From assembly GCA_001899285.1 (NCBI GenBank), contig MKWA01000009.1, forward strand, positions 201,032 through 265,031: a stretch of DNA of 64,000 nt. Direction: 5' to 3'. Positions 617 to 60,938 of the stretch are shown here, in pieces (the first letter of the stretch is position 1; every line of letters starts with the position of its first letter). The DNA is from Rhizobiales bacterium 64-17. GTDB lineage: Bacteria; Pseudomonadota; Alphaproteobacteria; Rhizobiales; Xanthobacteraceae. The translations under genes and the position numbers were made by a program. The notes beneath the pieces are model-generated. The model did no database searches. It was not told where the DNA came from and saw only the letters and a list, made by a program, of their open reading frames with translations.

Positions 617-1447
617 CTAATGCGCCACGCCGAGATAGGCGTCGATCACCGCCTGATTGGCCTTCACCTCGTCCGGCGTGCCATCGGCGATCTTGATGCC
701 GTGATCGAGCACCACGACACGGTCGGACAGGTCCATCACCACGCCCATGTCGTGCTCGATCAGCGCGATGGTGGTGCCGAAGTGCTCGTTGACGTCGAGG
801 ATGAAGCGGGACATGTCCTCCTTCTCCTCGACATTCATGCCGGCCATCGGCTCGTCGAGCAGCAACAGGTCCGGCTCCATCGCCAGCGCGCGGCCGAGTT
901 CGACACGCTTCTGCAAGCCATAGGGCAGCCGCCCGACCTGCACCCGGCGAATATCCTGAATTTTGAGGAAGTCGATGATCTCCTCGACGAATTTGCGGTG
1001 CTCCACCTCTTCGCGGAGCGCCGGGCCATAACGCAGCAACTGCCAGAAGAAGCTGCGCTTCATCTTCAACGTGCGCCCAGCCATGATGTTGTCGAGCGCC
1101 GACATGCCACGAAACAGCGCGACGTTCTGGAACGTGCGGGCAATCCCGCCATAGGCCGCCTCGAACGGCCGCATCTTCGAGCGGGTTTTGCCGCGAAAGG
1201 TGATGCGGCCCTTCTGCGGATGATAGAAGCCGTTGATGACATTGAGCATCGAGGTCTTGCCGGCGCCGTTCGGGCCGATGATCGCGCGGATCTCGCCCTT
1301 GCGGATATCGAACGACACGTCGGTGATCGCCTTCACGCCGCCGAACGACAGCGACACGTTCTCGACCGACAGCAGCCGGTCGCCGATCCGGCCGGACCGG
1401 GCGGCGCTCGCCGCATTCGGCACGATCTCCGCATACGGCGCCGTCAT
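617..1447 (-). CDS. livG: Branched-chain amino acid type ABC transporter ATP-binding protein (LivG)
   Basis: The 276-residue protein has all the hallmarks of a HAAT ATPase: Walker A GPNGAGKT at 58-65, Q-loop Gln near 107, the LivG-style signature LPYGLQ near 174-179 in place of LSGGQ, Walker B LLLLDEP near 195-201, and the switch His near 232. About 25 residues precede the usual LivG start. Its ATG overlaps the TGA of the upstream acyl-CoA synthetase in an ATGA, so the two are translationally coupled, and livH follows 9 bp downstream. It energises uptake through LivH/LivM on the cytoplasmic face of the membrane. The ligand is unknown; coupling to an acyl-CoA ligase suggests that the imported compound is activated with CoA on entry (inference). 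Confidence 0.95.
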   Translation of the reverse strand: MTAPYAEIVPNAASAARSGRIGDRLLSVENVSLSFGGVKAITDVSFDIRKGEIRAIIGPNGAGKTSMLNVINGFYHPQKGRITFRGKTRSKMRPFEAAYGGIARTFQNVALFRGMSALDNIMAGRTLKMKRSFFWQLLRYGPALREEVEHRKFVEEIIDFLKIQDIRRVQVGRLPYGLQKRVELGRALAMEPDLLLLDEPMAGMNVEEKEDMSRFILDVNEHFGTTIALIEHDMGVVMDLSDRVVVLDHGIKIADGTPDEVKANQAVIDAYLGVAH

Positions 1448-3417
1448 GCGGCTTTCCCCACCGGCGCGCGGATCGGCTCCAGCGCCATGTCGCGGATCTT
1501 CACCCGCGCCGAGATCACGCCCTTGCGGCCGTCCTCGAACGTCACCTGGGTCGAGATGTCGGCCTCGGTCGAACCGTCATAGAGCGCAGTGACCAGCGGC
1601 GCATAACGTTCGGCGATGAAGCCGCGCCGCACCTTCTGCGTGCGCGTGAGTTCGCCGTCGTCCGGATCAAGCTCCTTGTGCAGGATCAGGAACCGCTTGA
1701 CCTGGGCACCGGCCATGATCGTTTCCGACGCCAGCGACTTGTTCACCTCCGCGACGTGCTCGGCAATCATGTCGTAGACCAGCGGATGGCCGGCAAGCTC
1801 CTGATACGACGCATAGGCAACGTTGTTACGCTCGGCCCAGCTTCCGACCGCGGTGAGATCGATGTTGATCATCACCGCGACGTAATCGCGTTTGTCGCCA
1901 TAGGCGACGACCTCACGGATGTTCGGATAGAACTTCAGCTTGTTCTCGACATATTTCGGCGGGAACAGCATGCCGTTGTTGAGCTTGCCCACGTCCTTGG
2001 AGCGGTCGATGATCTTGAGGTGTCCGGTCTTTTCGTCGAAGAAGCCGGCATCGCCGGTCTTCACATAACCGTCGGCGGTCAGCACCTCGGCGGTCTTGGC
2101 CTCGTCCTTGAAATATTCGGTGAACATGCCGGGCGAGCGGAACTGTACCTCGCCGTCGTCGGCAATCCGGAGATCGACGTTCGTCATCGCCGGCCCCACC
2201 GTGTCGGAATAAATCTGTCCGTCCGGTTGCGCGGTGACGTAGAGGAACGCCTCGGTCTGTCCGTAGAGCTGCTTCAGGTTGAGGCCGAGCGAGCGGTAGA
2301 ACGCGAACAGATCGGGGCCGATCGCCTCGCCCGCCGTATAGGCGACGCGCACGCGCGACAGGCCGAGCGTGTTCTTCAGCGGCTCATAAAGCACGATCCG
2401 GCCGATGCCATAGAGCAGCCGGCCGATCAACGGCACCGGCTCGCCGTTAAGCAGCTTCTCGCCGTAGCGCCGCGCGATGCCGATGAAGGTGCGGTAGAGC
2501 CACTTGTTCAGCGCGCTCGCATCCTCCATGCGGATGGTCACGCGGGTGAGCAACTGTTCGAGCGTCCGTGGCGGCGCGAAATAGAAAGTCGGGCCGATCT
2601 CGCGCAAATCCTGCTGTATCGTCTCCGGGCTTTCCGGACAGGCCATGCAGAAGCCGGCGACGAGGCTCTGCGCATAATTGAGATAATGGTCGCCGACCCA
2701 GGCGAGCGGCAGATAGGCGAGCGCGACGTCGCGCTCGGTCAGCTTGTCGAACATCACGGTATCGACCGCCGCCTGCACCGAGCGCGCGCAGGTGAGCATC
2801 ACGCCCTTCGACTGGCCTGTGGTGCCGGACGTGTAAAGAATGATCGACGGATCGTCGCCATTGCCGTTGGCGATGCCGTCATCGATCGTTTTGGCGAAGG
2901 CTGCGTCTTTCAACGCCTCGGCGCCATCCTTGATGATGTCGGCGATCGGCGTCAGGCGGCTATGGTCGTAATCCCGCAGGCCGCGCGGCTCCTCATAGAA
3001 CATGCGTTCGAGCTGCGGCAGCCGCTCCTTGATGGAGATGATCTTGTCGACCTGCTCCTGGTCCTCGACGGCGGCGAAGCGCACCTCCGCGTGCGCTAGC
3101 ACATAGGCGAGTTCCTCGGCGACGGCATCGGCGTAGACCGGAACCGGAATGGCGCCGAGCATCTGCGCCGCCATGACCGACATATAAAGCCGCGGCCGAT
3201 TACCGCCGACGATGGCCATGGTGTCCCCACGGCGCAGGCCGAGCCGGGAGAGGCCGGCGGCATAGGCGCGGGTCTCGTCATAGACCCGACGCCAAGTCCA
3301 GGTCTGCCAGATGCCGAGATCCTTGTGACGAATAGCCGGGCGATCGCCGAACTGCCGGGCGTTGCGCACCAGCAGCTTGGGAAACGTATTCAGTGCCGCA
3401 TGAGGCCCGTCGGCCAT
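1444..3417 (-). CDS. Long-chain-fatty-acid/aryl acyl-CoA synthetase (AMP-binding)
   Basis: This ANL-superfamily enzyme of about 657 residues activates a carboxylic acid with ATP and CoA. The adenylate-forming P-loop YTSGTTGQSKG lies near residues 195-205, followed by the YGQTEA motif and the YVKTGDAGF hinge region. I place the start at ATG 3417 (protein begins MADGPHAALN) because an AGGGGAGGA ribosome binding site lies just upstream; an upstream ATG at 3495 lacks one. The length and layout match the FadD15-like long-chain group often found inside Liv-type operons. The stop codon overlaps the livG start. The substrate cannot be fixed from sequence; fatty, aromatic or branched acids are all possible. 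Confidence 0.9.
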   Translation of the reverse strand: MADGPHAALNTFPKLLVRNARQFGDRPAIRHKDLGIWQTWTWRRVYDETRAYAAGLSRLGLRRGDTMAIVGGNRPRLYMSVMAAQMLGAIPVPVYADAVAEELAYVLAHAEVRFAAVEDQEQVDKIISIKERLPQLERMFYEEPRGLRDYDHSRLTPIADIIKDGAEALKDAAFAKTIDDGIANGNGDDPSIILYTSGTTGQSKGVMLTCARSVQAAVDTVMFDKLTERDVALAYLPLAWVGDHYLNYAQSLVAGFCMACPESPETIQQDLREIGPTFYFAPPRTLEQLLTRVTIRMEDASALNKWLYRTFIGIARRYGEKLLNGEPVPLIGRLLYGIGRIVLYEPLKNTLGLSRVRVAYTAGEAIGPDLFAFYRSLGLNLKQLYGQTEAFLYVTAQPDGQIYSDTVGPAMTNVDLRIADDGEVQFRSPGMFTEYFKDEAKTAEVLTADGYVKTGDAGFFDEKTGHLKIIDRSKDVGKLNNGMLFPPKYVENKLKFYPNIREVVAYGDKRDYVAVMINIDLTAVGSWAERNNVAYASYQELAGHPLVYDMIAEHVAEVNKSLASETIMAGAQVKRFLILHKELDPDDGELTRTQKVRRGFIAERYAPLVTALYDGSTEADISTQVTFEDGRKGVISARVKIRDMALEPIRAPVGKAA

Positions 3418-37753: not shown

Positions 37754-38200
37754 TCAGGCGCGTCTGGCCGCTCGCTTCGCAGCCCGTTTGGCCCCGCGCC
37801 GCACCTTGCGCGCTGTCTTGCGCGCGGTCTTGCGGGCGGTCCGGGCCACCTTGCGGGCTGTGCGTTTTGCCTTGCGCTTGGCGGTGACGACGCGCTGCTT
37901 GCGCTTCGTCGCCGTGGTCTTGCGGCGGGTCCGGCGCTTGGCCTTGGCGACCTCGCGTTTGGCCTTGGCCATCAGGCTCGCGGCCCGGCGCTTCACTTGC
38001 CCGACCGTGCCGGTCTTGCGTTTGCGGCGCTTGCGGCCCTCGCCGCTAACCAGCCGTCGCGTGCCTTCGACCGCACCGCTGGCAAGATCGCTCGCGGTTG
38101 AAGCCGCGCCTTCCGCCAGCGACTTCGCGCCTTCGACACCCGCTTCCGCCAGCCCGGCAATGGTCTGCCCTGTGCTGGCGAGAATTCCTCGTTTAGCCAT
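37754..38200 (-). CDS. Histone H1-like Lys/Arg/Ala-rich DNA-binding protein
   Basis: The 148-residue protein begins MAKRGILASTGQTIAGLAEAG. Residues 1-50 form an Ala-rich amphipathic region. Residues 55-148 are about half Lys and Arg with repeated KAKR, TARK and RKTARK units. This composition is that of bacterial H1-like proteins (AlgP/HctB/BpH1 type) that bind DNA or RNA nonspecifically. GGGGA lies 10 bp before ATG 38200. It is monocistronic. A similar Lys/Ala sequence forms the extra N-terminus of the CoA-transferase at 53565-55037, with fewer Arg. Function in nucleoid or stress packaging is inferred from composition alone. Confidence 0.78.
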   Translation of the reverse strand: MAKRGILASTGQTIAGLAEAGVEGAKSLAEGAASTASDLASGAVEGTRRLVSGEGRKRRKRKTGTVGQVKRRAASLMAKAKREVAKAKRRTRRKTTATKRKQRVVTAKRKAKRTARKVARTARKTARKTARKVRRGAKRAAKRAARRA

Positions 38201-48767: not shown

Positions 48768-48863
48768 CCGCCGAGATCGACCCGCACCACATTTTGTCCG
48801 CTTTTGCGCGACATGCGGAGCATGCACATCGCTCCGCAACGCCATCCGAGGATATCGACAGAT

Positions 48864-49769
48864 ATGGCTCTGACGACCCGCCGCGCGGTTCTCGCCGGAT
48901 TCGGCAGCTTCGGTTTGGGAAGCTTTGCTGCCGGCGGTCTCACATCCCCGGTCTGGGCGGTCGCGCCGGACGCATCGTCTTTCACCACCACCGTGCGCAC
49001 GCTGGAGCGACGCAGCGGCGGCCGGCTCGGCGTCGCAGTGATCGACACACAATCCGGCAAGCAGAGCGGATGGCGCGCCGATGAACGGTTTCCGATGTGC
49101 AGCACTTTCAAGCTCGTTGCTGCTGCGGCGGTGCTGCGCCGGGTCGATCGCGGCGCCGAACAGCTCGACCGTCGCGTGGTGATCCGGCATCGCGATATCA
49201 TCACGTATTCGCCGGTCACCAAGGAGCGGATCGGCCAGGCCGGCATCAGCATCGCTGAACTGTGCGAGGCGGCGGTCACATTGAGCGACAACACCGCCGC
49301 CAATCTGATCCTGAAAAGCCTCGGCGGCCCACGCGCCTTCACCGCTTTCGCCCGGTCTCTCGGCGACCATGCGACGCGACTTGACCGGATCGAACCTCAT
49401 CTCAACAGCGCCATTCCCGGTGACCGCCGCGACACGACGACACCCGCGGCAATGGCGAAAACGGTCCGCGCACTGGTACTCGGCGATGCGCTGAGCGCGG
49501 CCTCACGCGTGCAACTCGTCGCCTGGCTACGCGGCAACAAGACCGGCGATACGCGGCTGCGTGCCGGGTTGCCGGACGGCTGGATCTGCGGCGACAAGAC
49601 CGGCACCGGCGTGCGTGGCACCTCCAATGACATCGGCGTGCTGTGGCCGCCGCAGCAGCGCGCGCCGCTCGTCGTTACTGCCTATCTCACCGGCAGCACT
49701 GGCGACGCCAAGGCACGCGACGCGATCCTTGCCGATGTCGCGCGCGCGGTGGTGGAGATGGCGGGATGA
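48864..49769 (+). CDS. Class A beta-lactamase
   Basis: The 301-residue protein has a Tat signal (MALTTRRAVLAGFGSFGLG). The class A catalytic set is complete: MCSTFK (SxxK, Ser70), SDN in TLSDNTAAN, Glu166 in RIEPHLN, and KTG in GDKTGTG. The Cys before Ser70 is seen in several environmental class A enzymes. It is chromosomal, with no mobile element nearby and no AmpR-like regulator; the preceding LysR belongs to fdh by position. It hydrolyses penicillins or cephalosporins in the periplasm; the spectrum cannot be predicted. Confidence 0.95.
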   Translation: MALTTRRAVLAGFGSFGLGSFAAGGLTSPVWAVAPDASSFTTTVRTLERRSGGRLGVAVIDTQSGKQSGWRADERFPMCSTFKLVAAAAVLRRVDRGAEQLDRRVVIRHRDIITYSPVTKERIGQAGISIAELCEAAVTLSDNTAANLILKSLGGPRAFTAFARSLGDHATRLDRIEPHLNSAIPGDRRDTTTPAAMAKTVRALVLGDALSAASRVQLVAWLRGNKTGDTRLRAGLPDGWICGDKTGTGVRGTSNDIGVLWPPQQRAPLVVTAYLTGSTGDAKARDAILADVARAVVEMAG

Positions 49770-50784: not shown

Positions 50785-52479
50785 TTAGAACAGGCCGACG
50801 ATCTTGCCGTCCTTGACGTCGATCGCGTCAGCGGACGGGGTCTTCGGCAGGCCCGGCATCGTCATGATCTCACCGCAGATCGCCACGACGAATTCCGCGC
50901 CGGCCGAGAGCCGCACCTCACGGACCGGAATGCTGAAACCGGTCGGCGCGCCCTTGGCGTCAGGATTGGTCGAGAACGAATACTGGGTCTTGGCGATGCA
51001 CACCGGCAGCTTGCCAAAGCCCATTTCCTCCCACTGCTTGAGCTGGTCCTTGACCGACTTGTCGGCGGTCGCGTCGTCGGCGCGGTACAGCTCCTTGGCG
51101 ATGGTACGCACCTTGTCGAACAGCGACGTCTCGTCGGCGTAGAGCAGCTTGAGATTGGCCTTGCCCTCGTCGCAGATCTTGACGACGGCCTTGGCGACAT
51201 CCGCCGCGCCCTCGCCGCCCATCGCCCAATGGTCGGCCATCAGCGCCTCGACGCCGAGCGCCTTGCACTTCTCCTTGACCAGCGCGACTTCGGCATCGGT
51301 ATCGGCCGAGAAGCGGTTGATCGAGACTACCGCCGGCAGGCCGAACTTCTTCACGTTCTCGATATGGCGCTGCAGGTTGGCCATGCCGGATTCCAGCGCC
51401 TTGAGGTCTTCCTTCTTCAGATCCTCTTTCTTGACGCCGCCGTGCATCTTCAGCGCGCGAATGGTGGCGACCACCACCACGCAGTCCGGCTTGAGCCCGG
51501 CCTTGCGGCACTTGATGTCGAGGAACTTCTCCATGCCGAGATCGGCGCCGAAGCCGGCCTCGGTGACGACGTATTCGGCGAGCTTCAGCGCGGTGGTGGT
51601 AGCGACCACCGAGTTGCAGCCGTGCGCGATGTTGGCAAACGGGCCGCCATGGATGAACGCCGGCGTGCCTTCCAGCGTCTGCACCAGGTTCGGTGCGATC
51701 GCTTCCTTGAGCAGCGCCGTCATCGCGCCGTGCGCGTTGAGGTCGCGGGCCCGGATCGGCTTACGGTCCCGCGTATAGGCGACGATGATGTTGCCGAGCC
51801 GTTCCTTGAGATCGTCGAGATCCTTGGCGAGGCAGAAGATCGCCATCACTTCCGACGCCACGGTGATGTCGAAGCCGGCTTCGCGCGGATAGCCGTTGGC
51901 GACGCCACCGAGCGAGCAGACGATCTCGCGCAGGGCGCGGTCGTTCATGTCCATCACGCGGCGCCAGGTGACGCGGCGAGAATCGATGCCGAGCGCGTTG
52001 CCCCAGTAGATATGGTTGTCGATCAGCGCCGACAGCAGATTGTGCGCCGAGGTGATGGCGTGGAAGTCGCCGGTGAAGTGAAGGTTGATGTCCTCCATCG
52101 GAATCACCTGCGCATAGCCACCACCGGCGGCGCCCCCCTTCATGCCGAACGACGGGCCAAGCGACGGCTCGCGCAGCGCGCACATCGCCTTCTTGCCGAT
52201 GAAATTGAGCGCGTCGGTGAGGCCGACCGTGGTCGTGGTCTTGCCCTCGCCCGCCGGCGTCGGCGAGATCGCGGTGACGAGAACGAGCTTGCCGTTCTTC
52301 TTGTCCTTGAGCGACTTCACGTATTCCATCGACACCTTGGCCTTGTAGTGGCCATAGGGCTCGAGGTTTTCCGCGGCGATGCCGAGCTTGTTCTTGGCGA
52401 CGTCGAGGATCGGCCGTTTCTGCGCGGCCTGGGAGATTTCGATATCGGATTTCGGATTCTGATGCTGCGAGGCGGGCAT
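50785..52479 (-). CDS. fhs: Formate-tetrahydrofolate ligase
   Basis: The 564-residue enzyme makes 10-formyl-THF from formate, THF and ATP. It contains [13 protein letters not shown]-like P-loop ([11 protein letters not shown] near 74-84), the [13 protein letters not shown] region and [12 protein letters not shown]. The size and order match FTHFS from methylotrophs and acetogens. It is the last gene of the run oxc-frc-formyltransferase-fhs and uses the formate released by frc. ATG 52479 is followed by the usual extended N-terminus ([16 protein letters not shown]). Confidence 0.96.
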
Positions 52480-53564: not shown

Positions 53565-55037
53565 TCAGGCCGCCTTTTCCTTCTTCTCCGGCGCGCTCAA
53601 CGCACCCGACGCCTTGATCTCGGCGATGACGTTGGCCTTGAGCTTGAGCACGTCGCGCAGGATTTCATCGGTGTGCTCGCCGAGCAACGGCGAGCGCTTC
53701 ACCTCGGAGATCGAGTCCGACAGCTTGATCGGATTGCCGACGGTGAGATAGGCACCGCGGGTCGGGTGATCGACCTCGACCACCGTGCCGGTCTTGCGCA
53801 GCGACTGGTCCTCGGCGATTTCCTTCATCGACAGGATCGGGCCGACCGGAATGTCGTGCGCGTTGCACAGCTCCATGACCTCGAACTTGCTCTTGGTCTT
53901 GGTCCACTGCTCGATGCGGTCGAAGATCTGCATCAGCTTCGGCAGGCGCGCCGGCGGCGTCGCGTATTCCGGATCGGTCTTCCAGGTCGGCTCGCCGATC
54001 AGATCGCAGATCGGGCCCCAGACCGGCGCCTGAGTGATGAAGTAGATGTAGGCGTTCGGATCGGTCTCCCAGCCCTGACACTTGAGAATCCAGCCCGGCT
54101 GACCGCCGCCGGAATCGTTGCCGGCACGTGGCGTCGCATCGCCGAACGGAATGTTCTGGCCGAACTGGCTGTATTCCCTAAGCGGACCGGCCTTGAGGCG
54201 CTGCTGGTCGCGCAGCTTGACGCGGCACAGGTTGAGCACGCCGTCCTGCATCGCCACGCTGACCTTCTGGCCGCGGCCGGTGCGGGTGCGCTGATAGAGC
54301 GCGGTGACGATGCCGAGCGCGAGATGCAGACCGGTGCCGCTGTCGCCGATCTGCGCGCCGGTGACGAGCGGCGGGCCATCGCGGAAGCCGGTGGTCGAGG
54401 CCGAACCGCCGGTGCATTGCGCGACGTTCTCGTAAACCTTGCAATCCTCATACGGGCCGGGGCCGAAACCCTTGATCGACGCGACGACGATGCGCGGATT
54501 GGTCTTGTGGATGTGCTCCCAGGTCAGACCCATGCGATCGAGCGCGCCTGGCGCGAAGTTCTCGACCAGCACGTCGCAGGACTTGATCAGTTCATCGAGC
54601 ACGCGCTTGCCCTGCGGATGCTTCGAGTCGATGGTGATCGACCGCTTGTTGTGGTTGAGCATGGTGAAGTAGAGCGAATCCGCGCCCTTCACATCGACGA
54701 GCTGGCCACGGGTGATGTCGCCGACGCCCGGACGCTCGACCTTGATCACATCGGCGCCGAACCATGCAAGCAACTGCGTGCAGGTCGGACCGGACTGGAC
54801 GTGCGTGAAATCGAGGATGCGCACGCCCTGCAGCGCCTTGCCATCCAGACCAAACGGCTTGGAGGAGATGCGCGGCATCGTCGACTTGGCCGATTTGGCG
54901 GCGCTTTTCTTCGCGGCCGGCTTCGCACTCTTCTTTACGGCCTTCTTGGCCGCCGGGCGGCGCGCGGCCTTCGCGACCTTGCGTGCCGGGGCCTTGCTTG
55001 CCGCCTTGCCCTTGGCCTTCTTCGATTTCTTCGCCAT
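53565..55037 (-). CDS. frc: Formyl-CoA:oxalate CoA-transferase with histone-like N-terminal extension
   Basis: The 490-residue protein has two parts. Residues 1-54 are almost only Lys, Ala, Arg, Ser and Pro ([15 protein letters not shown] at the start), like histone H1 tails. From about 64 it is a class III CoA-transferase: [20 protein letters not shown] with the Gln near 81, catalytic Asp near 232 in AQIGDSGTG, and the flexible loop SGGGQPG. It transfers CoA from formyl-CoA to oxalate. The long start at ATG 55037 has AAGGAG at good spacing; the internal ATG 54878 has none, so the extension is probably made. It is followed by a terminator and preceded by oxc. Confidence 0.95.
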
Positions 55038-55120
55038 CGCTTGCTCCTTGATCCCGATGATGTTTCCGATAGCCGCGCCCGCGCGGATGTCCGGAAACGA
55101 TATGTCCTTGGAAACGAAGG

Positions 55121-55154: not shown

Positions 55155-56888
55155 TCAGCTCTTCTTCTTCAGCGCGCTCTGCGGATTGAGATTGCCGATA
55201 CGGCCGGATTCGCTGCCCGCCGCCGGGTCGATCACGGCGTTGATCAGCGTCGGCTTGCCCGAATCCATCGCTGCGTTGACGGCGCGCTTGAGTTCGTCCG
55301 GATTGGTGGCATTGACGCCGACGCCGCCGAACGCCTCCATCATCTTGTCGTAGCGCGAGCCCTTGACGAACACCGTCGTTGCCGGGTCGGCGCCGCCGCT
55401 CTGATTGACGTCGGTGCCGCGATAGATGCCGTCATTGTTGAAGATGACGATGCAGACCGGCAGCTGGTAGCGGCAGATGGTCTCGACCTCCATGCCGGAG
55501 AAACCGAACGCCGAGTCGCCTTCGATCGCCAGCACCGGCTTGCCGGTCTCGACCGCCGCGCCGATGGCGTAACCCATGCCGATGCCCATTACGCCCCAGG
55601 TGCCGACGTCGATACGCTTGCGCGGCTTGTACATGTCGATGATGCCGCGCGTGAGATCGAGCGCGTTCGCGCCTTCGTTCACCAGGATCGCATCGGGGCG
55701 TTCCTTGACGATGGTGCGCAGCACGCCGAGCGCGCCGTGGTAGTCCATCGGCGAGTTGTTGTTCATCAGCTTCGGCGCCATCTTGGCGACGTTCTCGTCA
55801 CGCTTCTTGCTGACGGCGGCGAGCCAGTCGACGGGGGCCTTCGCCCAGCCGTTGCCCATCGCGTCGAGCATTGCCGTGACGCAGGAGCCGATATCGCCGA
55901 CCACCGGTGCGACGATCTCGACGTTCGAATCCATTTCCTTTGGCTCGATGTCGATCTGGATGAATTTCTTCGGCGCGTCGCCCCACGCCTTGCCCTTGCC
56001 GTGCGACAGCAGCCAGTTCAGCCGCGCGCCGATCAGCAGCACGACGTCTGAGTCCTTCAGCACCGTCGAGCGCGCCGCGCCGGCGCACTGCGGATGCGTG
56101 TCCGCCAGCAACCCCTTGCCCATGCTCATCGGCAGGAACGGCGCGCCGCTCTTCTCGACGAAGTTGCGGACCGCATCGTCGGCCTGCGCATAGGCCGCGC
56201 CCTTGCCGAGAATGATCAGCGGCTTCTTCGCGCTCTTGAGGACGTCGAGCGCACGCTTCACCGCCTCCGGCGCCGGGATCTGCGCCGGCGCGGCGTCGAT
56301 CACCTTGACCAGCGACTGCTTGCCCTTCTGCGCATCCATCACCTGGCCGAACAGCTTGGCCGGCAGATCGAGATAGACGCCACCCGGACGGCCCGACACC
56401 GCGGCGCGGATCGCGCGGGCAAGGCCGATGCCGATGTCCTGCGCGTGCAGCACACGGAACGCCGCCTTGCACAGCGGCTTGGCGATGGCGAGTTGGTCCA
56501 TCTCCTCATAGTCGCCCTGCTGCAGATCGACGATCTCGCGCTCCGACGAACCGGAGATCAGGATCATCGGGAAGCAGTTGGTGGTCGCATGCGCGAGCGC
56601 GGTCAGACCATTGAGGAAGCCCGGCGCCGACACCGTGAGACAGATGCCCGGCTTCTTGGTGAGGAAGCCGGCGATCGAGGCGGCATAGCCGGCATTCTGC
56701 TCGTGGCGGAACGACAGCACGCGGATGCCCGCGGCCTGCGCCATGCGGCCGAAATCGGTGATCGGAATGCCCGGCACGCCATAGATCGTATCGAGCCCGT
56801 TGAGCTTCAACGCATCGATGATGAGGTTGAAACCATCGGTCAGTTCCTGCTCGGCCGGAGCCGCGGCCGCCGCACTTGCACCACTCAT
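55155..56888 (-). CDS. oxc: Oxalyl-CoA decarboxylase
   Basis: The 577-residue TPP enzyme converts oxalyl-CoA to formyl-CoA and CO2. It shows [12 protein letters not shown] near 60-71 with the catalytic Glu, and the TPP motif [20 protein letters not shown] starting near 465 and ending in NN. The C-terminus, rich in Lys with KKKS, matches the family. The start [14 protein letters not shown] at 56888 has GAGGAG 6 bp upstream; the frame extends upstream but overlaps gntR and is not coding. gntR lies 55 bp upstream on the same strand, and frc follows. Confidence 0.96.
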
Positions 56889-56943: not shown

Positions 56944-57711
56944 TCAATCCAGGTAATCGGCGTAGCGCTCGACGTGCTCGGCGAGACCGAGCGCGTGGTC
57001 GCGCACCAGCTTCTCGGCCAGCGCGGTGTCGCGCGCCTCGAGCGCCTCGATGATGTGCATGTGATCGCGGATCGACCGGTCGGCACGATCCTTCTCGACA
57101 ATCGTCTTGCGGCGGATCATCCGCATATGGGTGAACAGATTTTCCGCCATGTCGGTGAGCACGCGGTTCTGGCTCATCCGGATGATGGCCTGATGAAACT
57201 GAATGTTCACTTCCGAATATTCATCGAGATTGGCGAGCACGCGGCCATCGACGAACGAGGCGAACATGCGGCGCAGCGACTTGATGTCGTCGTCGAGCGC
57301 GGTCTCGGTAATCAAGCGCGCGGCCATGCTTTCGAGCGCGGCCCAAGCGGTGATCATCTCGATCACCTCGCGCTTGGTCTTGCGCACCACATAGACGCCG
57401 CGACGCGGCACCGAGCGCACAAAGCCTTCGCGCTCAAGCTGCGCCATCGCCTCGCGCACCGGCGTCCGGCTGACGCCGAAGTCCTGCGCGAGTTGACGTT
57501 CGTCGAGGCGGATGTCCTCGCGGCTCTGATAGACGTCCATCCCGACGATGACGTTTTTCAGCGCCGCATAGGCTTTGTGCTTGAAACTCAGAGACGTGTC
57601 GATCGGCTCGATGGCGAGGCGGGCCGCGTCGCTGGCGGACTCCCCACCGAGGTCCGCCCGGCGTTTGCCGCGCAGACCGCGAGGAGCTCCAGGGGGCAGC
57701 CGATCGGTCAT
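56944..57711 (-). CDS. GntR-family (FCD) regulator of the oxalate genes
   Basis: The 255-residue protein has a basic, disordered N-terminus of about 40 residues, then a winged HTH ([24 protein letters not shown] near 89-112) and an FCD helical ligand domain with the metal-site His residues ([14 protein letters not shown]). It lies between tctA and oxc on the same strand. A GTATAC-type motif lies immediately upstream of its ATG, which suggests autoregulation. Family members sense small acids; oxalate or oxalyl-CoA would be natural effectors, by inference. The first codon is uncertain because the motif sits only 9 bp away. Confidence 0.9.
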
Positions 57712-57764: not shown

Positions 57765-59273
57765 CTATGCGGTTTTTGGAACCCCACGCAGGCGCGACCA
57801 GGCGCTCGCGATCACGCCCCAGAACAGCGCCACCAGACCCAGCACCATGATGGTGGCGACCAGGCCGTTGGAGAAGAACACCCCGAGATTCCCGCCGGAG
57901 GCGAGCAGCGACTGGCGGAACGCCTCCTCCGCCTTGTCGCCGAGCACGATGGCAAGGACCATCGGCGCCAGCGGATAGCCCGTCTTCTTCATGGCGTAGC
58001 CGACGATGCCGAACACCATCATCAGGATGACGTCGAACGACGAGTTATGCACCGTGTAGGCGCCGATCGCGCAGATCACGAGAATGATCGGGGCGATGAT
58101 GCTGAACGGAATGCGCAGGATCGCGGCGAACAGCGGTACGCAGGTCAGCACGATGATCAGGCCGACCAGGTTGCCGAGATACATGGAGGCGATCAGACCC
58201 CAGACGAAATCCTTCTGCTCGACGAACAGCAGCGGACCGGGTTGCAGGCCCCAGATCAGCAGGCCGCCGAGCAGCACTGCGGCGGTCGGCGAGCCGGGCA
58301 CGCCGAGCGCCAGCATCGGCAGCAGCGCCGAGGTGCCAGCCGCATGCGCCGCGGTTTCCGGCGCCACCACGCCTTCGATCTCGCCGTTACCGAAATTCTT
58401 GCCGCGCTTGGAAATACGCTGCGCGATGCCGTAGCTCATGAACGAGGCCGGCGTCGCACCGGCGGGCGAAATGCCCATCCAGCAGCCGATCAAGCACGAG
58501 CGCAGCGACACCATCCAGTAGCGCGGCAATTCCATCCAGGTCTGCAGCACAACCCGCGGATTGATGCCGGCCGCCTTGCCCTTGAAGGAGAGCCCCTCCT
58601 CCATGGTCAGCAGGATTTCGCCGATACCGAACAGGCCGATCACCGCGATCAGGAAGTCGAAGCCATTGAGCAGTTCGGTGAAACCGAAGGTGAGGCGCAA
58701 CGAGCCGGTGACGCTATCGAGACCGACGGCCGCGAGCGCGAAGCCGATCATCATCGAGGCGACGGTCTTGAACGGCGGCTCCTTGCCCATGCCGATGAAA
58801 CTGCAGAAGGCGAGGAAGAACACCGAGAATTTCTCGGCCGGTCCGAACTCAAGCGCGAATTGCGCGACCAGCGGCGCGACCAGCGTGATGACGATCACGG
58901 CGAACAGCGCGCCGACAAAAGACGAGGTGAACGCAGCGGTCAACGCCTCGCCGGCCTTGCCCTGCTGCGCCATCGGATACCCGTCGAAAGTCGTTGCAAC
59001 CGACCATGGTTCTCCAGGTATGTTGAACAAGACCGAGGTGATGGCACCGCCGAACAGCGCCCCCCAGTAGATGCACGACAGCATGATGATCGCCGAGGTC
59101 GGCGACATGCTGAAAGTCAGCGGCAGCAGGATGGCGATGCCGTTGGCGCCGCCGAGACCCGGCAGCACGCCGATGATCACGCCCAGCAAAATCCCGACCA
59201 CCATCAGCAGGATGTTGAAGGGCTGGATCACAACCGCGAAGCCGTGAAACAGATTGCCGATATCTTCCAACAT
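57765..59273 (-). CDS. tctA: Tripartite tricarboxylate transporter large permease TctA (second set)
   Basis: The 502-residue permease shows GVLPGLGGANGIAILLPLTF near 38-57 and GALFGGAITSVLFNIPGEPWSV near 71-92, with the second-half repeat AAHAAGTSALLPMLALGVPGSP split by the limit here. About 12 TM helices are expected. The motif PGLGGANG deviates from PGIGPALT of the first set, a different subgroup. TAGGAAA precedes ATG 59273. gntR and oxc follow on the same strand, 53 bp away, which supports an oxalate or related small-acid substrate (inference). Confidence 0.92.
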   Translation of the reverse strand: MLEDIGNLFHGFAVVIQPFNILLMVVGILLGVIIGVLPGLGGANGIAILLPLTFSMSPTSAIIMLSCIYWGALFGGAITSVLFNIPGEPWSVATTFDGYPMAQQGKAGEALTAAFTSSFVGALFAVIVITLVAPLVAQFALEFGPAEKFSVFFLAFCSFIGMGKEPPFKTVASMMIGFALAAVGLDSVTGSLRLTFGFTELLNGFDFLIAVIGLFGIGEILLTMEEGLSFKGKAAGINPRVVLQTWMELPRYWMVSLRSCLIGCWMGISPAGATPASFMSYGIAQRISKRGKNFGNGEIEGVVAPETAAHAAGTSALLPMLALGVPGSPTAAVLLGGLLIWGLQPGPLLFVEQKDFVWGLIASMYLGNLVGLIIVLTCVPLFAAILRIPFSIIAPIILVICAIGAYTVHNSSFDVILMMVFGIVGYAMKKTGYPLAPMVLAIVLGDKAEEAFRQSLLASGGNLGVFFSNGLVATIMVLGLVALFWGVIASAWSRLRGVPKTA

Positions 59274-59342
59274 GACGTTTCCTAACCCGAGATCTTTTTC
59301 TGTTGTGGGCGCGGCCTTCGGCCTGCGCGTGACAGGTCAAAC

Positions 59343-59843
59343 CTACAGACCGAGCCAATCTTCGAGCGGCCCCTTCGGCAGCGGCACGAGGAACCATTTC
59401 TCGAACATGAAATAGATCGCGACCGGCACCGCGACGCCGACGATCAGCGCGGTGTGCCAGCGATAGCGGCCGAGCCAGATCATGAAGCCGGTGATCAGCA
59501 CGATCGAGGAGACGTATATGCCGGTATAGGGCAGCACCAGCACATAGACCGTGGTCGGAATCACCACCGCGAGCACCTGGCCGAGCTGACCCCAGTTGGC
59601 GAACAGCGGCTGCGGATCGAGCGCCCAGGCGTTTTTGAGATTGATCAAGCTCGACAGGATGATGATCACGCCGATGTAGAACGGGAAGAAGCCGGACTGC
59701 GGACCTTCCGCGCCCCAACCGATCCCCGCGCTGAGACTGCCGAAGATCGTGATGCCGCCAAAGATGAGGCAGATGATCGCCACGGCGATTTCGACACTGC
59801 GATGCGGAGGGCCGTCAGTTGCCATGAGGGGCTGCCTGCTCAT
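59343..59843 (-). CDS. tctB: Tripartite tricarboxylate transporter small subunit TctB (second set)
   Basis: The 166-residue protein has four TM helices, with VEIAVAIICLIFGGITIFGS near the start, GPQSGFFPFYIGVIIILSSLINL, and the C-terminal LPKGPLEDWLGL. The last piece matches the PLPKGPLE signature of TctB. ATG 59843 (MSRQPLMATDG) has AGGAA about 10 bp upstream; a TTG at 59873 would add ten residues. It is preceded by an intrinsic terminator after tctC. Confidence 0.88.
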   Translation of the reverse strand: MSRQPLMATDGPPHRSVEIAVAIICLIFGGITIFGSLSAGIGWGAEGPQSGFFPFYIGVIIILSSLINLKNAWALDPQPLFANWGQLGQVLAVVIPTTVYVLVLPYTGIYVSSIVLITGFMIWLGRYRWHTALIVGVAVPVAIYFMFEKWFLVPLPKGPLEDWLGL

Positions 59844-59885
59844 GCGAAAGGATTCCTGAGGGGAACGGAACAATGGAGATGTTGT

Positions 59886-59918
59886 AAAAACGCCGGCGGA
59901 TCGTGCGATCCGCCGGCG
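59886..59918 (-). terminator. Intrinsic terminator between tctC and tctB
   Basis: A 12-13 bp perfect stem, CGCCGGCGGATCG (59891-59903) with CGATCCGCCGGCG (59906-59918), is followed on the minus strand by TTTTTACAAC. It lies directly downstream of tctC, as the one after dctP does. Confidence 0.9.
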
Positions 59919-59927
59919 CTGAAACGG

Positions 59928-60938
59928 TTACTTCTTGGCGAGGAAGCCCGCGTCTTTCATCAGGGCTTCGTGAGTCTTTTCCGCGGCCTCGACCCACTTG
60001 AGATAGTCGGCTCCGGCGAGCGAGGTCTGGTTGAAGGCCCCGTCCTTCATGAGTTGCGCCCACTCCGGCGTGGCCCGCACCTTCTTCATCAGATCGACAT
60101 AGTAGGCGACCTGATCCGCCGTCGCGCCCGGCGACATGAAGAAGCCGCGCAGCATCAGATATTCGACATCGATGCCCTGCGACTTACAGGTCGGGATGTC
60201 GTTCCACGACTGGTCGGCGGTGATCTTGTCCTTGTAGTCGAGCTGCTTGCTGTCGAACACGCAGAGCGGCCGCAGCTTGCCGGCGCGCCACTGCGCCACC
60301 GCCTCGATCGGGTTGTTCACCGACGAATCGACGTGACCGCCGACGAGCTGCACCGCGACCTCGCCGCCGCCCTTGTACGGGATATAGGTCATCTTCTTGC
60401 CGGTGGCCTTTTCCAGCGCCACGGTGATGATCTGGTCTTCCTGCTTGGAGCCGGTGCCGCCCATCTTGAACTGGCCGTCGGTGCCGGCCTTGATCGCGGC
60501 GATGTAGTCCTTCGCCGACTTGTAGGGCTTGTCCGCATTCACCCAGAGGATGAATTCGTCGAGCGCCATCATCGTGACCGGCGTGAGATCCTTGTAGGAG
60601 AACGGAATGCCTGTCGCGAGCGGTGTCGTGAACAAGTTCGACAGCGTGATGATCAGCTTATGCGGGTTGTTGCGCGATCCCTTCACATCGAGAAAGCCTT
60701 CGCCGCCCGCGCCACCCGATTTGTTGATCACAACCATCGGCTGCTTCATCAGGTTGTGCTTGGTGACAATGCCCTGCACCACGCGGGCCATCTGGTCGGC
60801 GCCGCCGCCGGTGCCAGCCGGGACAATGATCTCGACGGGACGGGTCGGCTCCCAGGCCGCCTGCGCCGCGAACGGTGCCGCGCCTGCAATCACGGCCGCG
60901 GCCGCGCAAAGTCCGAGCCTCTGCAACGAGAAAGTCAT
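59928..60938 (-). CDS. tctC: Tripartite tricarboxylate transporter substrate-binding protein TctC (second set)
   Basis: The 336-residue exported protein has a signal peptide ending in APFAAQAAWEP near residue 28, then VEIIVPAGTGGGADQMARVV near 35-54, the Bug-family ligand loop. DKPYKSAKDYIAAIKAG is also typical. It ends KDAGFLAKK. GAGGAAC is well placed before ATG 60938. It is first in the run tctCBA-gntR-oxc-frc and has a GTATAC-type motif about 130 bp upstream. Oxalate is the obvious candidate ligand by context only; Bug proteins bind many carboxylates. Confidence 0.92.
   Translation of the reverse strand: MTFSLQRLGLCAAAAVIAGAAPFAAQAAWEPTRPVEIIVPAGTGGGADQMARVVQGIVTKHNLMKQPMVVINKSGGAGGEGFLDVKGSRNNPHKLIITLSNLFTTPLATGIPFSYKDLTPVTMMALDEFILWVNADKPYKSAKDYIAAIKAGTDGQFKMGGTGSKQEDQIITVALEKATGKKMTYIPYKGGGEVAVQLVGGHVDSSVNNPIEAVAQWRAGKLRPLCVFDSKQLDYKDKITADQSWNDIPTCKSQGIDVEYLMLRGFFMSPGATADQVAYYVDLMKKVRATPEWAQLMKDGAFNQTSLAGADYLKWVEAAEKTHEALMKDAGFLAKK

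Follow-up and report, generated by a model that had tools for sequence, protein, structure and literature searches.

Known formyl-CoA transferases and polycationic tails

Formyl-CoA:oxalate CoA-transferases (Frc) form an interlocked homodimer, and structures are available for the enzymes of Oxalobacter formigenes (1p5h) and E. coli (YfdW, 1pt5/1q6y). Polycationic tails have been described in AlgP and PhaF of Pseudomonas, where they are C-terminal and contain many KPAA repeats. One fragment of the tail of AlgP binds DNA, and the protein is found on polyphosphate granules; for PhaF, binding of DNA by the tail is presumed, and neither carrier is presented as an enzyme in that account (PMC9239181). 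Lys-rich regions of YihI and Rnr of E. coli, which are proteins of ribosome biogenesis and translation, bind polyphosphate, and the region of YihI also contains Ser and acidic residues (PMC12345225).

The window, a stretch of 64,000 nucleotides of Rhizobiales bacterium 64-17 (contig MKWA01000009.1), encodes an Frc whose core is 55-59% identical to the O. formigenes and E. coli enzymes (TM of target 0.93-0.96) and possesses the equivalents of their catalytic Asp169 and Gln17, but whose core is preceded by 54 residues of tail and 12 of linker; in 20 of 20 sequence matches from the PDB, the best stretch runs from residue 60-69 of the window protein on. Like the tails of AlgP and PhaF, the Frc tail is rich in Lys, Ala and Pro with an H1-like composition, is almost free of acidic residues and is predicted to be disordered. 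Unlike them, it is N-terminal and attached to an enzyme, and in the window protein it has one KPAA in place of a C-terminal array of tandem repeats; the likeness is one of composition. With YihI and Rnr it shares a Lys-rich segment, predicted in Frc to be disordered as theirs are. Its likeness to histone H1 is also one of composition alone: the original prediction, which called the tail histone H1-like, was right as to composition, but the globular winged-helix domain of H1 is missing, CoA_transf_3 being the sole Pfam domain detected in the protein.

The oxalate cluster and its formyl-CoA transferase

The gene belongs to a cluster, gntR-oxc-frc-fmt-fhs, in which every gene lies on the minus strand. 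The features of the cluster are as follows.

56944..57711, minus strand: GntR-like regulator (many GntR-type models, the listed ones under their curated cut-offs)
55155..56888, minus strand: oxc, oxalyl-CoA decarboxylase (TIGR03254, 1024.8 bits; ATG at 56888)
55044..55049, minus strand: Shine-Dalgarno word AAGGAG, 6 nt upstream of the long ATG
53565..55037, minus strand: frc open reading frame, 490 aa (ORF list and translation)
54876..55037, minus strand: Frc polycationic tail, residues 1-54, ending ...SAKSTM (composition, pLDDT)
54840..54875, minus strand: Frc linker, residues 55-66 (in the clade, consensus P-K-x-S-x-K-P-[FYW]-G-x-[AD]-G followed by KAL)
53568..54839, minus strand: formyl-CoA:oxalate CoA-transferase core, residues 67-490 (TIGR03253, fold, catalytic residues)
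53565-53567, minus strand: frc stop codon
52543..53472, minus strand: Fmt-like formyltransferase (best PDB matches 4qpd and 2bw0; under the TIGR00460 cut-off)
50785..52479, minus strand: fhs, formate-tetrahydrofolate ligase (NF010030, 935.3 bits)

The GntR-like gene occupies the same place in relatives with enough flanking sequence. Upstream of the cluster are TctA and TctC-type transporter genes (57765-60938, minus strand) that possibly serve carboxylate uptake, and an ORF at 48804-49769 on the plus strand resembles a class A beta-lactamase (STFK, SDN and KTG recognized by eye).

By the identity of its core, the protein is a normal formyl-CoA:oxalate CoA-transferase. Residues 67-479 match TIGR03253 (oxalate_frc; model positions 2-415/416) with 711.5 bits against a curated equivalog cut-off of 504.2, and CoA_transf_3 spans residues 69-456, in agreement with the complete class III CoA-transferase that had been predicted behind the tail. 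Superposition of the monomer model gives 1q6y (YfdW) as the best fold match of the core (TM of target 0.96, rmsd 1.6, 59% identity), consistent with the class III CoA-transferase fold. Asp232 and Gln81, which we take to be the equivalents of the catalytic Asp169 and Gln17 in the reference numbering, show no variation in 169 of 169 sequences. Where the GGGG loop of YfdW has its first Gly, the window Frc has Ser309, and Ser occupies this site in 69/69 tailed and 88/100 tail-less sequences.

Translation start of the tailed enzyme

If the start codon were misassigned and the true start were Met54 or later, the tail would be an artefact; such an error would bring the protein into line with the tail-less members of the family, which start near the core (mostly 1-3 residues ahead of it among tail-less relatives, much as had been stated for known Frc proteins). 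Nevertheless, the long start is well supported. AAGGAG suits it, as had been noted, and a scan upstream of the internal ATG for Shine-Dalgarno-like words of at least 4 nt found none; moreover, Met54 is unconserved. A Shine-Dalgarno word of at least 4 nt lies upstream of the tail start in 71 of 76 tailed loci, compared with 32 of 134 internal start codons, the former count being biased upward by a preference for the better Shine-Dalgarno word among candidate ATGs and the 76 including duplicate loci. Eleven of the 76 tailed loci (9 distinct) contain no ATG, GTG or TTG from tail residue 10 to 3 residues before the core. Judged from the sequences, the tail is probably translated. An error of start or assembly was rejected on these Shine-Dalgarno data, on the presence of the tail in 36 of 37 same-genus Frc and on the constraint upon its charge (see below), and we consider it highly improbable.

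Composition and predicted disorder of the tail

Residues 1-54 comprise 18 Ala, 18 Lys, 6 Ser, 3 Arg, 3 Pro, 2 Val, 2 Met, 1 Gly and 1 Thr; in keeping with the original prediction, 48 of the 54 are Lys, Ala, Arg, Ser or Pro, and with no Asp or Glu the net charge is +21. In a 464-kb sample of the same genome, consisting of the window and 20 stretches, a comparable run of 40 aa occurs in 3 of 2439 stop-to-stop ORFs of at least 90 aa read in six frames, and at the N-terminus in Frc alone; a genome-wide habit of Lys-rich N-termini was rejected, Frc standing alone in the 464 kb sampled. A tail-profile search of the bacterium's own genome, by a method that is weak for low-complexity sequence, returned no bearer other than Frc, and the tail is found on none of the other class III CoA-transferases at the 8 loci of this genome that were examined (L002-L008, L231).

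Two Lys-rich C-terminal regions were observed in other proteins. At 37757-38200 on the minus strand, the window encodes a small protein, MAKRGILAS..., whose C-terminal half is H1-like and rich in Lys and Arg; it has no Pfam match up to E 0.01. At 1219-1848 (minus strand) of locus L232, on contig C15 of the same genome, a SET-domain protein (Pfam SET, 6.7e-23) has a Lys-rich C-terminal tail; SET enzymes can methylate lysine.

Across tailed Frc, the extension including the linker measures 39-138 aa (median 57) and carries a net charge of +11 to +37 (median +19). In the first 69 of these proteins, Asp and Glu account for 13 of 3306 tail residues, and 61 tails have neither. Six linker columns (P, S, K, P, G, G) are identical in 65-69 of the same 69, and the linker motif S.[KR][PA].G.[AD]G is found in 72 of 79 tailed Frc. 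A V[VLI][KR][LIV] patch recurs in 28 of 79 tails, which indicates that the tail is not pure charge; this patch could be a docking motif.

An AF2 model built on a diverse alignment (A3, 44 rows) has a mean pLDDT of 85.5 and supersedes an earlier run on 32 tailed rows (mean pLDDT 56.3). Residues 1-7 and 9-50 are below 50 and without secondary structure, the blocks 51-60 and 61-70 average 56 and 72, and the core is mostly above 90. The tail is accordingly predicted by the model to be disordered.

Distribution and ancestry of the tail

An Frc above the family cut-off is encoded in 98 of 150 related genomes. The original prediction had allowed for the tail being missing from all close relatives; instead, 36 of the 37 same-genus genomes with a full-score Frc carry it, and the exception (G042) retains the linker only. 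Tailed proteins make up 79 of 212 distinct Frc in a sample weighted towards kin, which was drawn from the 150 relatives, the best 80 named loci and additional loci at family, order and class level, with matches below 500 bits, short or truncated cores and duplicates left out. Besides the family of the window itself, three further families of the class sample (f108, f138 and f173) contain tailed Frc, with L230 in another (f96). The 12 named loci with a tail (L039-L050) are all MAGs, with titles that include Pseudorhodoplanes, Reyranella and Rhodoplanes, and none of the named loci L051-L118, which include Bradyrhizobium, Methylobacterium and Ancylobacter, is tailed. Nor is there a truly tailed Frc among 45 loci taken at the level of phylum and order (L258-L302, some from genomes already sampled). 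One of them (L282) was flagged as tailed by rule and rejected, the flag being due to an upstream out-of-frame read and the likely start being at MQMKALEG. The Frc of order-sample genome G1049 is tail-less.

In an IQ-TREE tree of the 212 Frc, one branch (SH-aLRT 97) holds 78 tailed proteins and 3 tail-less ones (L038, L053, L155), and the tail label changes 5 times; an earlier FastTree of 169 Frc, with weak inner branches, gave 7 changes. One gain and three losses, together with the separate L230, would do for this tree. Since three Frc inside the tailed clade are tail-less, and a fourth (L164) has a weak tail, the tail can be lost. Two of the tail-less proteins of the clade, L155/L304 (G042) and L053, keep the linker and are natural controls. 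L230 (genome G193) is a distant Frc with a Lys-rich N-terminal tail and no linker motif; its tail is possibly an independent gain, of which the long branch in the tree leaves us unsure.

Selection on tail charge

In 45 near pairs, which overlap in that they share members, dN/dS reaches 0.28 in the tail and 0.33 in the linker, against 0.06 in the core. Across 31 disjoint pairs, 122 amino-acid changes involve a single nucleotide, and none of them swaps Lys or Arg with Asp or Glu, whereas mutation would be expected to produce 6.7-13.9 such swaps for a transition bias of 1 to 4; thus, charge is kept more than residue order, to which the V[VLI][KR][LIV] patch and the linker motif are in part exceptions. 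Two swaps are present among all 481 differences when multi-base ones are included. These sequence comparisons support a tail that changes fast yet is constrained, and that is maintained by selection.

Constraint on charge alone cannot separate polyanion binding from other uses of a basic tail. One such use would be as an aid to solubility, folding or expression, through Lys-rich early codons or as an entropic bristle, with no specific ligand. The wide drift of the tail in sequence and length and the natural tail-less versions within the clade are in keeping with this. Against it stands the maintenance of charge in the face of mutation, although a solubility tail, too, could need this; other Frc of the same fold manage without a tail, and Frc is alone among the sampled ORFs of this genome in having one at the N-terminus. 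We regard this explanation as unlikely.

Possible roles of the tail

A charge of about +20 per chain that is conserved fits a polyanion anchor. According to this proposal, a clade of Alphaproteobacteria would retain a translated, probably disordered and nearly acid-free Lys/Ala tail with a short linker on a normal Frc, and the charge of the tail rather than its exact sequence would retain the enzyme on nucleic acid or polyphosphate. Binding of nucleic acid or an acidic polymer would fit both the conservation of charge and the precedent of AlgP and PhaF. A maintained polycationic anchor of the AlgP/PhaF type, tethering Frc to nucleic acid or polyphosphate, is the reading that we prefer, tentatively and at slightly less than an even chance. 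We infer from the sequences and from these precedents that cells make the tail and that it binds a partner, and the identity of the ligand and the benefit of binding it are surmised in the same way.

Alternatively, tail and linker may dock the partners encoded in the cluster (the Fmt-like protein, Fhs and Oxc), an arrangement in which reactive formyl-CoA or oxalyl-CoA would be handed on locally. The Fmt-like gene follows within 1.5 kb downstream of frc in 74 of 76 readable tailed loci versus 43 of 128 readable tail-less loci (3 tailed and 5 tail-less loci being unreadable for this gene, and coordinates having been used to enter it by hand for 16 tailed and 2 tail-less rows); counts of "close FMT" in the tree table, which include matches cut at locus ends, were left unused. 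In addition, L038 (G081), a member of the tailed clade, has neither a tail nor an adjacent Fmt-like gene nor a close oxc, and several linker columns are near-invariant. On the other hand, the association of tail and Fmt-like gene appears from the tree to be largely through common descent: of 4 independent contrasts on supported branches, which are too few for significance, the Fmt-like gene changes together with the tail in an average of 1.8 and contrary to it in none. The idea that the tail strictly marks the Fmt-like gene was rejected, L208 and L210 being tailed without the gene and L053, L112, L113, L238 and L155 being tail-less with the gene close by. In the near pairs, linker and tail evolve at about the same rate.

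The charges of the partners also count against docking. Beside tailed Frc, the median net charge per 100 aa is +0.36 for OXC (10 sequences), +0.33 for FMT (20 sequences) and +0.71 for FHS (10 sequences), so that none is acidic; OXC beside tail-less Frc without an Fmt-like gene has -0.18 per 100 aa (46 sequences). OXC is more basic beside tails, as is the Frc core itself (median charge +2 in tailed and -6 in tail-less proteins), in a comparison made without a proteome control. A tether to the oxc product, which the original prediction had suggested, finds no support as bulk electrostatics, because the net charge of OXC and of the other cluster partners ranges from near neutral to slightly basic. 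Overall, docking of cluster partners strikes us as fairly unlikely.

A third possibility is electrostatic capture of substrate, in which the tail would concentrate CoA thioesters, free CoA or oxalate near the active site. Active-site Gln81 lies 15 residues past the linker, and the entrance for CoA could thus be within reach of a flexible tail. Against this, the charge would be beyond the needs of small anions, for which ATP and other anions would compete, and structurally similar Frc exist without a tail; substrate capture therefore seems very unlikely.

A candidate formyltransferase beside frc

The nearest PDB match of the Fmt-like protein is the hydrolase domain of 10-formyl-THF dehydrogenase (FDH), at 1.2e-65. 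This domain of FDH (ALDH1L1) and the N-terminal domain of HypX/HoxX belong to the same superfamily as the Fmt-like protein and transfer formyl groups with His and Asp; unlike either, the Fmt-like protein stands alone and is encoded within an oxalate cluster. To our knowledge, no activity is known for such a stand-alone protein of an oxalate cluster. In 32 close orthologues its residues Gln100, His102, Ser104 and Asp138 do not vary; among 36 remote relatives, His102 and Asp138 are invariant and Gln100 is present in 26. FDH passes formyl to a phosphopantetheine thiol, and HypX has been proposed, without direct proof, to pass formyl to CoA (PMC6802093). The thiol chemistry of FDH and the proposal for HypX make transfer from formyl-CoA to THF a reasonable guess, and by this analogy the Fmt-like product might be a candidate formyl-CoA:THF formyltransferase that links formyl-CoA to folate. 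That one cluster should combine a naturally occurring formyl-CoA:THF formyltransferase with a metabolic enzyme whose H1/AlgP-like tail serves as its anchor is a doubtful proposition, with a small chance of being correct.

Implications

The enzyme itself is known, and what distinguishes this variant is its conserved Lys-rich N-terminal tail. No paper pairing a formyl-CoA transferase with a lysine-rich or N-terminal extension was found in a literature search that covered few subscription papers and is therefore weak evidence of novelty. A metabolic enzyme has retained a tail of high charge and probable disorder while the sequence drifted widely, and the tail-less orthologues within the clade (L038, L053, L155), together with a possible second gain (L230), provide controls. 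The linked Fmt-like gene suggests an ATP-saving route from oxalate into one-carbon metabolism. If the tail localizes Frc, its removal may allow the importance of local concentration to be probed for a reactive intermediate such as formyl-CoA, and the enzyme would be a clean bacterial case of enzyme placement by charge.
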